Notes: a model not told the origin generated them from the letters alone. Positions 9,741-15,625 are shown, counted from the first letter of the stretch. The stretch is 37,967 nucleotides of DNA from Desulfurococcales archaeon (GCA_027023255.1 JALVVU010000107.1:1-37967); one strand, 5' to 3'. Translations and numbers: made by a program.

Positions 9741-10301
9741 ATGAACAGAACGCAAATCTTCAGTCTCGCGTCACTCGCACTACTTATTGCCTCAATAGGC
9801 GCGGTAGCTGCGATGTGGTCCGAGACCTTGAAAGTGAATGTAAACGTGAACACTGGTGAGGTAGACGTTAAGTGGAGTAGTTGGAGTTGCAATGATAATG
9901 GTGCCGACCCTCAGATCCCGAACTCAAAATTCAGTAATGATGAGGGTAAGGATGTAGCTAGGTGCTATGTGCAGGCAGAGAAAGAAGATAAAGAAGGCGA
10001 TGTAATTAAGCTAAACGTCACGATAACGAATGCATACCCAGGCTACCATGCAGTAATAACGCTAGTAGTTGATAACGTAGGTACGATCCCTGTAAAGCTG
10101 TACAGCAGTAGTATAGGTAAGTACCCAACATCAGCACTCTCGGTCTCTCTAGACAAACCTACAGATACGCAAATCCATCCGGGAGGGAATTCAACGTATA
10201 CATTAACCGTTGACGTACTGCAGGGCGCCGGTGAGAAGCAAAACTACTCCTTCGAAGTAACTCTGGTCTTCGCCCAGTGGAACGAGGTATCAGGAGACTA
10301 A
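9741..10301 (+). CDS. TasA/AbpA-like secreted filament subunit (SipW-type signal peptide)
   Basis: MNRTQIFSLASLALLIASIGAVAAMWSETLKVNVNVNTGEVDVKWSSW... is a signal peptide followed by the W-S-E-T-L-K-V-N-V-x-V-x-T-G-E motif of camelysin/TasA-like proteins; beta-rich remainder. Confidence 0.75.
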   Translation: MNRTQIFSLASLALLIASIGAVAAMWSETLKVNVNVNTGEVDVKWSSWSCNDNGADPQIPNSKFSNDEGKDVARCYVQAEKEDKEGDVIKLNVTITNAYPGYHAVITLVVDNVGTIPVKLYSSSIGKYPTSALSVSLDKPTDTQIHPGGNSTYTLTVDVLQGAGEKQNYSFEVTLVFAQWNEVSGD

Positions 10302-10302
10302 A

Positions 10303-10326
10303 ACACCTAATGAATAATTCAGGTGT
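10303..10326 (+). promoter_or_regulatory. Small intergenic hairpin between the two filament-subunit genes
   Basis: ACACCT (10303-10308) and AGGTGT (10321-10326) are perfect complements around a 12-nt spacer. Confidence 0.4.
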
Positions 10327-10387
10327 AACTAAAAATGAAAAACATTTTGAATGAAAAATTATTCGATAATGCATATAGGTGTGAGAA

Positions 10388-11074
10388 ATGAGTAATGCAT
10401 ACATACTAAAACCCGTAGCCTACACGCTACTGATAGTAGCCATAGTAACAGGAGCCTTAGCCATGTGGTCTGAAACCCTAAAGATTAACGTAGGTGTGAA
10501 TACTGGTGAACTGCACTGGAGATTCAAGCCAGGCTCCGAGATAGTAAAGGACGAATGCGGCACTGGAAGCTTAGACTGGAACGCCACGTACCTAACAAAT
10601 GGGTCCGTAGGTGCTGAGAGAATAGACGACGCGAAGGATGTTGGTTGTACATCAGCACACTTCTACGATACTGACGGTGACGGTGACCTAGATACCCTAA
10701 ACATAACGATACACAACGGGTACCCATGGTATTATACCCACGTGGCGTTTGCAGTGGAAAACGATGGAACGATACCGCTGAAGATCTGGAAAGTAGTTAT
10801 ACATGGAAGAACTACGTATGAGATCACCAGCAGCACTGGTATGAGGTTAGACCTTACGGGTGATGGTAAGCCTGACGTGTTAATATGGTGGGGTGACAAC
10901 TTCGGGAAGCAGTTACACCCCGGTGACTATGCAGACATTAGCCTCGAGATAGTGGTGCTACAGGATGCACCGGAAAACGCTAATCTCACAGTATCAATAA
11001 CAATGTACGCCATTCAGTGGAACGAGTACGACAGTGTAATGTCGCCCACAACCACTATAACAGGCGGAGCGTAA
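10388..11074 (+). CDS. Second TasA/AbpA-like secreted filament subunit with DxDxDG-type loops
   Basis: AMWSETLKINVGVNTGELHWRF matches the N-terminus of the upstream paralogue. Contains DTDGDGDLDTLN and DLTGDGKPDVL, and the shared ...QWNEYDS/QWNEVSG C-terminus. Confidence 0.75.
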   Translation: MSNAYILKPVAYTLLIVAIVTGALAMWSETLKINVGVNTGELHWRFKPGSEIVKDECGTGSLDWNATYLTNGSVGAERIDDAKDVGCTSAHFYDTDGDGDLDTLNITIHNGYPWYYTHVAFAVENDGTIPLKIWKVVIHGRTTYEITSSTGMRLDLTGDGKPDVLIWWGDNFGKQLHPGDYADISLEIVVLQDAPENANLTVSITMYAIQWNEYDSVMSPTTTITGGA

Positions 11075-11195
11075 CATACTCATCATGACAAGTAGGCTCC
11101 GTAAGCAGAACTGTATTTTTCCTTTAAAATTCATGTATATATTTTGAACTTATATACTTAGATAACAAATCTGTAATAAGGGGTACTGAAGCACT

Positions 11196-12467
11196 GTGCA
11201 CGGACTAAGCAACGACAAGAAAGAGAGAAAGATACTGTTTGTTATAGGTATGTTTACGACTATACTTGCTTACTCTATATCTTTCATAGAGTTAAGAGGA
11301 ATGTCAGCGTACGTCGTACCAGCAATCATCTGGTTACTGGCGGCTGTATTACTGATTAAGTCAACAATTATAGTCAGAAACATTGTTAAGGATAAACTCC
11401 TTGTGATTCTCCTATCGTTACTATCATTACGTTTCGCCACGGATGTTGTCGTGGGTCTGAACCTGGGGTTCGGATTGAATCTGCTTTCAGTAAGTACCAT
11501 GAATATCGTGATCAATATCTTAAGGACCCTCCCAATGATTACCGCTCTTGAGAGCCTACGCACAACCCTCATATTCCGCGTTGATAAACTACGTAGTCCT
11601 AAGACACGGGCATTCCTAATCACTTTAATTACCATCATTATGGCTTTAGCCTATATTCCTGTAACCAGGCTACTCTCATTTTTCCCATTAATCACTGGAG
11701 GCATTATACCCTTTACCATTAACAGGTTCTTCCCGCTGTTAGCGGAGAGTACCGTTCTCACAACACTAGCTTACGTCGGTGGGGCTATCCTCCCAATAAT
11801 TTACATGTCGCTAGTCAAGGCTTACGTATTTGTGATGCCTGTACTTCCAGTTCAGCAAGGACACGTTAGGCCCCTAGCATACATGCTAATGTCGCTACTA
11901 CAGTTGGCGCTACTGTGGATGATGCGAAACAAACGCTTAAGTTTTAGGGAGGTTTATAATTTAACCCTAAGCAAACGCACCGGAGCATTGAAAAGGATAT
12001 TCCATGTAACAATGACTATTCTCAATATCGCCGTAGCTGGAGGAATACTATTTCTACTAGTCTCTGGAGGGAGATTAACGGTAGTTACTAGCGGCAGTAT
12101 GACCCCAACATTGAATGTAGGGGACGTGGTGCTAGTCACACCAACCCAGGAACTCCAGAATGGTACAATTGCTGTTTACATTGGTGAAAGATCCTTAGTT
12201 ATACACAGGGTTGTAGGCATAGTGCATTATAATGGAACGAGGTCCTACGTTTTCAAGGGAGACGCCAACAATGACGTGGATCCCGACCCAATACCCCAAA
12301 AATATGTTGTGGGTAAGATGACGTTTAAGGTGCCCCTGGTGGGTCTGCCAGTGATATTATTAACGAAAAGTGTGGGCGGATTCCCGAGGATGTCTGCGCT
12401 ACTTATATCACTAACAGTGCTTCTGTACGCCCTTGTATTACAGTTGGAGGTCATGAAGCTTTGGTAA
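11196..12467 (+). CDS. Polytopic membrane protein with C-terminal S26 (SipW/Sec11-like) signal peptidase domain
   Basis: C-terminus VVTSGSMTPTLNVGDVVLV (Ser box), VIHRVVGIVHYNGTRSYVFKGDANNDVDPDPI (His and GD-N-D boxes). The preceding ~280 residues are several hydrophobic segments. GTG start. Confidence 0.85.
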   Translation: MHGLSNDKKERKILFVIGMFTTILAYSISFIELRGMSAYVVPAIIWLLAAVLLIKSTIIVRNIVKDKLLVILLSLLSLRFATDVVVGLNLGFGLNLLSVSTMNIVINILRTLPMITALESLRTTLIFRVDKLRSPKTRAFLITLITIIMALAYIPVTRLLSFFPLITGGIIPFTINRFFPLLAESTVLTTLAYVGGAILPIIYMSLVKAYVFVMPVLPVQQGHVRPLAYMLMSLLQLALLWMMRNKRLSFREVYNLTLSKRTGALKRIFHVTMTILNIAVAGGILFLLVSGGRLTVVTSGSMTPTLNVGDVVLVTPTQELQNGTIAVYIGERSLVIHRVVGIVHYNGTRSYVFKGDANNDVDPDPIPQKYVVGKMTFKVPLVGLPVILLTKSVGGFPRMSALLISLTVLLYALVLQLEVMKLW

Positions 12468-13507
12468 AGAAAGACATTGTTAAGTATGTGCAGGTGCTTT
12501 CGGTCATATTACTTGCGCTACTTACATTAACGCTAGTAGAAATGATTATTGCTTATAGAACGCCTGAATATCAGGTACATACAGTCAGTAATTACAGGGT
12601 AGAATACGTAACTGAGGTCTCATACAATGCTTCAGTTAAGCCCTCCCTACTTTACGGCAACAGAAGCAACGTGAGTACTGGCGAACCGCTTTACACTAGG
12701 TTAGTGAAGGAACTAAACATTTGCTTCGTGTACAACATTAAATCAAGCCCCCCTGCACTTAGTAGTAAATACGAAGTAACGCCTAGGGCAATACTGAGGA
12801 GCGAGGGCTGGGACAAGGTCATAGACGTGGAGAAGATACAGCATGAAAGTAACAATCGAGCAAATGGTTTCACGGCATGCATAAGTATAAACTTCACCAA
12901 AGTACTAAGAGATATCACGACAATTGAAAAGGAAATAGGTGTCCGACGAGATAAGCATAATATCACAATAATTATGGACACGTCAGTCGAGACTCTACTA
13001 CACAATAAGACACTACGCTCAAAAATGAGCCCTACCGTAACTCTCCAAATAAATGACGACGGAAGAACCTACGTAATAACCAAGAACCTGAAAGAAGTAG
13101 AGGAAAACTCAACAACACTGAAATCACCAACAACAGTCAATATCATGGGCCTCACAGTACCCACTTCATCAGCTAGAGCAACATTACTACCACTCTCCGT
13201 AATCTTAGGAGTAACTACAGCGATCTCCATAGGGCTACTACTAAAACATGGAAAGGAGGAGAAGAAAAACGTTGAAGAGATCCTGAAAGAGCGACTTAAG
13301 GGTAAACTAATCAGAGGAACCGTAGATAACTCAGGCGTGGCAGAAGTAACACTCCACAACATAGAGGACTTCATAACCATTGCAAACGAACACCGCAACG
13401 ATGTAATATATGACCAAACTAAAGGAAAGTACTACGTCATAGACCTGAACACCATATACTCACTAAACAATGACAACTCACAATTAAGGAAGTCTGAAGA
13501 AAAATGA
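12461..13507 (+). CDS. DUF5305-like membrane-anchored extracellular protein
   Basis: N-terminal TM, IAYRTPEYQVHTVSNYRVEYVTEVSYNASVKPSLLYGNRSNVSTGEPLYTRLVKEL, C-terminal TM VPTSSARATLLPLSVILGVTTAISIGLLL and cytoplasmic tail. Overlaps the signal peptidase gene. Confidence 0.6.
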   Translation: MVKKDIVKYVQVLSVILLALLTLTLVEMIIAYRTPEYQVHTVSNYRVEYVTEVSYNASVKPSLLYGNRSNVSTGEPLYTRLVKELNICFVYNIKSSPPALSSKYEVTPRAILRSEGWDKVIDVEKIQHESNNRANGFTACISINFTKVLRDITTIEKEIGVRRDKHNITIIMDTSVETLLHNKTLRSKMSPTVTLQINDDGRTYVITKNLKEVEENSTTLKSPTTVNIMGLTVPTSSARATLLPLSVILGVTTAISIGLLLKHGKEEKKNVEEILKERLKGKLIRGTVDNSGVAEVTLHNIEDFITIANEHRNDVIYDQTKGKYYVIDLNTIYSLNNDNSQLRKSEEK

Positions 13508-14134: not shown

Positions 14135-15625
14135 CTACTGGTTCCATACCTTACACCTCATAACGAGGTATGTGAGGGCGATAGTTAATAACGTTAGGAT
14201 AATTATGGCAACATACATTAGATAATGAACTTGATTGGGTCTTGCTGCTTTTATCTTCCGTAATGTTAATGGGTATATGATGTACACTGAGTTATTTGTG
14301 TATAGGCAGCCTGAGGCATAATCATCCAATGTAAATATCGGGCGTTTCTTTATGTATTTGATTATTGTAGTGGCGTTGTTTCCTGTGATTATCCCTAGTG
14401 CTTTTGCTTGATTCGTGTTCGTTATCAGTGTTAGCATGTCTGATGCGTTTGTGTAGCACTTGTTTAGGAGCTTGAATCCATTGCTACAATAACCCACGTA
14501 GTTTCCCTCCATTAATTTAACTGCTGACCTAAACAACGAGGTGCTGGATAAAGTGATAACTAAAACATTACTCCTCAGCAATAAGTTAGCTAAATCACCC
14601 GCTTCAGCGGATGGTTCGATAACTATTGAATTATTAAGGGGGTATAAGTAGGCGTAGTTAAATGACATTACATTCTTAATTAGTTGTGCAACTTCCCTTA
14701 ATTGGGGGTAGTCACTATCATATACTATTGTCGTGTTTGTCAACGCTAAATACTTGTAGAATGGATTATAATCACTGGGATACCTATAATTACTTCTCAA
14801 GTAATTAAGCCATTCTTCCTCTAACTTATCAAGACCTAAACCGTAAACATCCTTAAAGTATTTAGTACTTGGGCTCTGACACATTAGCTTATATAACTTT
14901 AAGTATTTACTTAGACCGTAATTATTTATTAACCAGTAAGCAAAGCTTTCGATCTCTGCACGGTAGGCTAAACTCCCTGCAGTTAATCTACTAAAGGCCT
15001 CCTTCAACGGTATGTCAGCATTATGATCAAATAGGTAAAGCACGGGTTCGTTAGGATAACCGCTCATCTCAAGCTCAATAGCCTCTACTGGTAATGTTTT
15101 CATTGTTAGGTAAAGGTTTAAACCCTCCCTGAAATTAGCTGCTACGTCGTTAAAACTCGGTGAAATATAGTTCCTTATAAAGTACACATTAACCGCATCG
15201 GATATTCTGAGGAATAAGTAATTAAGGTTTTCATAATCTTCCGTAACATTCATGCCAAAGATATGATATCTCAGCTTGTAAGGCACGTAAATAACCGCCA
15301 CACCGTTCTCAGTGATCTTAGGGAAGTAAGGCACGTAACGACGTTTCTCAGGTTCCCTGAAATACTCTATGGAGTATATGGTTATGTTAATGCTTACATC
15401 ACCCTTGATATCAAGGATCTTAACAATCTTGGAAACCAATTCCTCCGCAAGATTATGAATCCTTGCAACATTATGCTTAAGCCAAGGGTCAGCACCAGTA
15501 GTGAGATGGATAATAACCTTTACATGGTCTTCCTGGCGAACTTCATAGGCGCTTCCTGCATGAGTTACAGGTAAAAATAAACTGCCTAACAAACAAAACA
15601 AGACCAAGTAGCATGAAAATTGCAT
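14135..15625 (-). CDS. Secreted, C-terminally membrane-anchored protein, possibly an inactive gluzincin-like peptidase relative
   Basis: Signal peptide MQFSCYLVLFCLLGSLFLPVTHA, C-terminal TM YLMYVAIIILTLLTIALTYLV + basic tail. Has NFREGLNLYL (EGLAxYL-like) but no HExxH. Confidence 0.7.
   Translation of the reverse strand: MQFSCYLVLFCLLGSLFLPVTHAGSAYEVRQEDHVKVIIHLTTGADPWLKHNVARIHNLAEELVSKIVKILDIKGDVSINITIYSIEYFREPEKRRYVPYFPKITENGVAVIYVPYKLRYHIFGMNVTEDYENLNYLFLRISDAVNVYFIRNYISPSFNDVAANFREGLNLYLTMKTLPVEAIELEMSGYPNEPVLYLFDHNADIPLKEAFSRLTAGSLAYRAEIESFAYWLINNYGLSKYLKLYKLMCQSPSTKYFKDVYGLGLDKLEEEWLNYLRSNYRYPSDYNPFYKYLALTNTTIVYDSDYPQLREVAQLIKNVMSFNYAYLYPLNNSIVIEPSAEAGDLANLLLRSNVLVITLSSTSLFRSAVKLMEGNYVGYCSNGFKLLNKCYTNASDMLTLITNTNQAKALGIITGNNATTIIKYIKKRPIFTLDDYASGCLYTNNSVYIIYPLTLRKIKAARPNQVHYLMYVAIIILTLLTIALTYLVMRCKVWNQ

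Follow-up and report, generated by a model that had tools for sequence, protein, structure and literature searches.

The window, a stretch of 37,967 nucleotides from a heat-loving Desulfurococcales archaeon, carries on its + strand four consecutive genes, which we call P1 to P4, and a fifth, P5, lying upstream of them. P1 (9741-10301, ATG start, 186 aa) encodes a secreted protein, a putative fibre subunit, with a predicted cleavage site at A24|M25; P2 (10388-11074, ATG start, 228 aa) encodes a second such subunit, with predicted cleavage at A25|M26. After a T-rich gap of 121 bp comes P3 (11196-12467, GTG start, 423 aa), an S26 signal peptidase behind a polytopic membrane domain, and the start of P4 (12461-13507, TTG start, 348 aa), a DUF5305 protein with two membrane segments, overlaps the 3′ end of P3. 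The winged-helix (HTH_45) gene P5 (7687-8397, + strand), a probable regulator, lies upstream of P1, with tRNA-Ser and tRNA-Val genes between the two. That an S26 peptidase and then a DUF5305-like protein follow on the same strand had been proposed in an earlier note, and was confirmed by matches of P3 to the archaeal signal peptidase I model TIGR02228 (83.7 bits, cut-off 51.85) and of P4 to DUF5305 (PF17231, 72.7 bits, cut-off 29). P5 matches HTH_45 (PF14947) at 50.8 bits (cut-off 25.5).

P1 and P2 have ATG start codons, whereas P3 has GTG and P4 has TTG; output of P1 and P2 could therefore exceed that of P3 and P4, with the two subunits made in the larger amounts. The RNA between P1 and P2 (10299-10388) folds better than shuffled sequences do (z=-3.5), with pairing that covers the ribosome site of P2; we dropped the idea of a hairpin occluding this site because the stem is broken in a copy from the same genus. 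Beyond P4, on the - strand (14135-15625), lies a gene for a secreted protein with a C-terminal membrane segment and a weak match to Peptidase_MA_2 (19.9 bits, below cut-off).

P1 and P2 have in common the N-terminal pattern AMWSETLK[VI]NVxVNTGE and a C-terminal QWNE, so that the description of two consecutive paralogous secreted proteins given in the earlier note holds. P1 reads A-MWSETLKVNVNVNTGE and P2 reads A-MWSETLKINVGVNTGE, each directly after a hydrophobic signal peptide; P1 ends in FAQWNEVSGD, and P2 continues for 15 residues beyond its QWNE. Since the two find each other in profile searches, and since paired P1/P2-type genes recur in 62 of the loci examined, the resemblance is not due to chance. 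The best PDB match of each, by single-sequence search, is AbpX (archaeal bundling protein X), and profiles built from 12-13 relatives again placed AbpX at the top, at E=8.3e-14 for P1 (PDB 9sj2, a Pyrodictium abyssi fibre) and E=4.3e-9 for P2. This is a remote similarity (35% over about 100 aa). Most archaeal P1 and P2 sequences fall into two main groups of a tree, read here by its topology with branch support left aside, and AbpX lies outside both.

Membership of narrower families was not supported. The earlier note had placed the two subunits with camelysin/TasA and AbpA, but PF12389 (camelysin/TasA) matched neither P1 nor P2 nor anything else in the genome, and the PDB matches of the P1 and P2 profiles at E<=10 included no chain under the name AbpA, which the PDB set searched may perhaps lack; the family-level label is therefore dropped. 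The models for SipW-dependent secreted proteins (TIGR04088/TIGR04090) did not match P1 or P2 of the window, and matched some relatives weakly (best E 0.0049). AlphaFold2 predicted beta-rich cores for both proteins (mean pLDDT 75 for P1 and 74 for P2), and a Foldseek search of these models against the PDB gave no match with E<1e-3. The best of 350,542 chains for P2 was the TasA fibre 8aur, below significance (E=4.8e-3, TM 0.26); no TasA fibre was among the 50 matches listed for P1. What stands of the TasA/AbpA-like filament locus proposed earlier is thus its functional core, restated as a donor-strand fibre locus of AbpX type.

DxDxD-type loops, which may bind metal, occur in all 62 P2-type members and in 25 of 75 P1-type members; the window P2 has two, and loops of the DxDxDG type produce its sub-threshold FG-GAP matches, which we set aside. 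P1 ends near the last strand in most lineages. P2 is fused to adhesin-like domain(s) of the SdrD_B type at one locus (L057), and at three others (L090, L085, L187) a further subunit combines the shared N-terminal strand with a long C-terminal region. These loops, the fusion and the extra subunits with their C-terminal parts suggest a minor or adhesive role for P2 with its variants, and P1 as the bulk subunit. Alternatively, P1 and P2 could have equal rank in one mixed fibre, where they would alternate or replace each other. Such a co-polymer is conceivable because the two show much the same conservation (57% median identity to the copies in the window, compared with 30% for P3 and 25% for P4), and both carry the same donor-strand motif; however, the universal loops of P2-type proteins, the extra domains at L057, and the fact that P. 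abyssi AbpX apparently functions without a P2 at its own locus make us regard it as possible but doubtful. In 59 of 71 P1 and 53 of 61 P2 members, two Cys residues follow the donor strand within 75 aa, and a stabilising disulphide is possible.

Two loci (L195, L181) have a third protein with a similar N-terminus that is otherwise unrelated. Between P2 and P3 at L195:9782-10465, L186:10585-11175 and L175:10430-11038, a P1-like N-terminus is followed by an unrelated RSKGYW-type body, which reads as a donor strand grafted onto another fold. A third, diverged paralogue, starting AMWSTRLGINVSVNTG, is present in the window's own genome (L067:9680-10345, on G000:C80) and also at L068, far from the P1-P2 locus; it adjoins genes for a type II/IV secretion ATPase, a TadC-like protein and a HerA/TraG-like ATPase.

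The mature N-termini predicted for P1 (MWSETLKVNVNVNTGEV, 9813-9863, + strand) and P2 (MWSETLKINVGVNTGEL, 10463-10513, + strand) each place a Trp at P2′, and that of P1 aligns to the mature N-terminus of AbpX. The AbpX gene, located by a 100% match in what is presumably P. abyssi, reads ...TYA|QWSETLSLSATISTG, so that MWSETL in P1 and P2 and QWSETL in AbpX all directly follow the predicted signal peptide. As this Trp is residue 2 of the deposited fibre chain 9sj2, mature AbpX begins exactly at the shared motif. In PDB 9rhp a glycine-rich linker leads into the same stretch at the C-terminal end, a layout which reads as that expected of a donor-strand-complemented design. Given the position of the motif in 9sj2 and its C-terminal copy in 9rhp, the shared N-terminus is very probably the donor strand.

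A different possibility is that P1 and P2 are surface proteins, S-layer-associated or adhesins, which have the fold and processing of fibre subunits and do not polymerise. The fibre locus of this archaeon is known from its genes alone, and the N-terminal motif is also present in proteins with other downstream sequence, both of which would allow this. Against it, the AbpX match of P1 covers the donor strand and the core together, and the motif stands at the mature N-terminus in both the window proteins and AbpX; we consider it improbable.

The Trp at P2′ of the predicted cleavage site was found in 71 P1-type and 61 P2-type sequences with the motif, a count made with a pattern that itself demands W and that missed five members: one is truncated, two have the W but differ elsewhere, and two (both at L192) carry Phe, likewise aromatic, in place of Trp. 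In TasA the P2′ residue is Phe; E. coli LepB cuts this protein poorly, and its processing falls to the dedicated ER-type peptidase SipW (PMC10269814). TasA F29 also contacts the next subunits within the fibre (PMC9674648). By analogy with TasA, one aromatic residue may both serve assembly and create the demand for a special peptidase.

P3 would be that peptidase. Its predicted catalytic residues are S301, H337 and either D356 or D362, all four positions being invariant in 11 related sequences, and hydropathy places about 270-290 residues rich in membrane-spanning segments ahead of the peptidase part; this N-terminal domain matched no credible Pfam family, and P3 scores below the SipW model NF046067 (57 bits, cut-off 190). 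Among 60 related genomes, the fused P3 is present in 26 of the 29 with P1 and in none of the 31 without (Fisher p=5e-14, kinship ignored); the three exceptions have the locus on contigs of 3.0, 6.9 and 4.6 kb. The view that this archaeal/ER-type peptidase is dedicated to the locus, already put forward in the earlier note, is upheld by this co-occurrence. P3 could instead be the cell's general signal peptidase, standing beside P1 and P2 by accident, and the T-rich gap after P2 does mean that P3 may be transcribed apart. That is most unlikely: besides the complete absence of the fused form from sampled genomes without P1, a separate short S26 peptidase is found in most genomes whether they have the locus or not (here at G000:C74:659-1108), and the linkage of P3 persists in a bacterium.

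At five loci (L201:5188-8817, L203, L205, L202, L206) an S26 peptidase of another kind, about 365-397 aa long, is encoded beside secreted proteins that begin with NASVFVYY or a similar sequence, which suggests a further secreted-fibre or thread-like locus, again with a peptidase to itself.

The cassette is conserved as a unit. Of the 229 genomes sampled from the class, 77 have P2-type homologues, and 62 loci have two P1/P2-type genes. The neighbours were counted at the 41 of these with more than 4.5 kb downstream, which include near-identical species of one genus: P3 is intact in 39 of 41 (split in two frames at L089), so that P1, P2 and P3 are nearly universally linked, the DUF5305 gene is frequent (31/41), and a P5 homologue adjoins the cassette in 25/41. 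This agrees with the conserved four-gene linkage expected in the earlier note; its idea of a self-contained locus needs some qualification, for a likely regulator, P5, lies outside the proposed bounds. Because the P5 family is conserved beside the cassette, the true unit is probably larger than 9741-13507. Self-containment is limited further by lineages in which DUF5305 is absent or replaced, and by others with adhesin-like extra subunits.

P4 has membrane segments at 12-30 and 242-260 by hydropathy and is probably a membrane-anchored accessory protein, either a base or an assembly factor; we found no paper on DUF5305 in the literature searched. At L062 and L166 its slot holds a diverged DUF5305-like protein (sub-threshold), followed by P5. 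At five other loci (L175, L176, L182, L186, L195) the slot is filled by a secreted protein of 450-500 aa, that of L195 matching divergent InlB B-repeats (PF18998).

One copy of the cassette lies outside the archaea. A Clostridia metagenome-assembled genome keeps the gene order on a 194-kb contig (L106), with three subunit genes, then P3, then DUF5305 (112 bits); genes for a multihaem cytochrome, GGDEF-EAL and LuxR proteins flank the cassette, and its P1 copy lacks both Cys residues. The GC content of this cassette is 0.53-0.57 against 0.62-0.66 in the upstream flank, the downstream flank also being low, and the subunit is absent from 21 other genomes grouped with this one. Lateral transfer of the cassette to a bacterium is likely; an artefact of the assembled genome is conceivable.

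We propose, with good though not full confidence, that the locus encodes an AbpX-type fibre, an archaeal bundling pilus, built by donor-strand exchange. P1 and P2 would leave the cell through Sec, and P3, as a locus-specific membrane peptidase, would cut both just before M-W-S-E-T-L; the N-terminal strand so freed would fill the beta-sandwich groove of the next subunit, giving an extracellular fibre. P1 would most likely be the bulk subunit and P2 most likely a minor one with a terminal, initiating or adhesive role; P4 would probably be anchored in the membrane as a base or assembly factor, and the locus would probably be under the control of P5. Such a fibre could serve in cell-cell bundling or biofilm formation. 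That the genes instead build a cannula-like tube of the CanA type is scarcely credible, since, although Pyrodictium cannulae are also reported to assemble by donor-strand complementation with calcium (title of Sleutel et al., cited in PMC12326000), neither profile matched a PDB chain named CanA or cannula protein at E<=10, AbpX being the top match.

More speculatively, and we would not ourselves favour it, P3, with its extra polytopic domain, and the DUF5305 protein might form a membrane platform that couples signal-peptide cleavage to donor-strand polymerisation; this would be a peptidase-driven counterpart of chaperone-usher systems, a module handed down through an archaeal order and acquired by one bacterium or more.

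The fibre locus is real, well conserved and of the ABP/AbpX type, and the functional idea of the earlier note holds. The kind is known, that of AbpX, and the window has a two-subunit variant of it. We found no description of a two-subunit cassette with fused peptidase and DUF5305 in the literature searched, which excluded the source papers on AbpA and AbpX, and these may describe parts of it. With this locus the single structural case of AbpX becomes a recognisable genetic system, and a first functional context is given to DUF5305, to the polytopic domain fused to a signal peptidase and to the HTH_45 regulator family. A simple reason is also offered for the private peptidase of donor-strand fibres, namely that the aromatic start of the donor strand is the P2′ residue of the cleavage site. 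As the module is small, it is testable in one cultivated relative.

Several known systems share parts of this design. The threads of Sulfolobus acidocaldarius (Saci_0406) are likewise Sec-exported donor-strand archaeal filaments encoded in a conserved gene cluster, but Asp and a YYY motif open their subunits, for which an isopeptide bond is proposed (PMC9715654), whereas those of the window start MWSETL. The AbpA of Pyrobaculum calidifontis is, as cited in PMC9674648 and PMC11952670, an archaeal donor-strand bundling pilus, but no sequence match between it and P1 or P2 was found, as judged by PDB chain names. The TasA systems, tapA-sipW-tasA in B. subtilis and sipW-tasA-calY in B. cereus (PMC9674648, PMC10151520, PMC4292775, PMC10269814), resemble the window locus in having a secreted beta-sandwich subunit with an N-terminal donor strand and an aromatic P2′ residue (features predicted in the window), a dedicated ER-type signal peptidase, and a second subunit or accessory protein. 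They differ in that the window subunits do not match PF12389, in that P3 has a long polytopic N-terminal domain and lies under the NF046067 cut-off for SipW, and in that DUF5305 stands in place of TapA. Closest is AbpX (PDB 9sj2, 9rhp), whose fibres in P. abyssi are described as donor-strand exchanged (PMC11952670): its subunit is homologous, with the mature N-terminus [MQ]WSETL, and after its gene comes one for a fused, P3-like S26 peptidase (L177). No DUF5305 or P5 homologue was detected at the AbpX locus, and where one subunit gene was found there, the window has two paralogous subunits.
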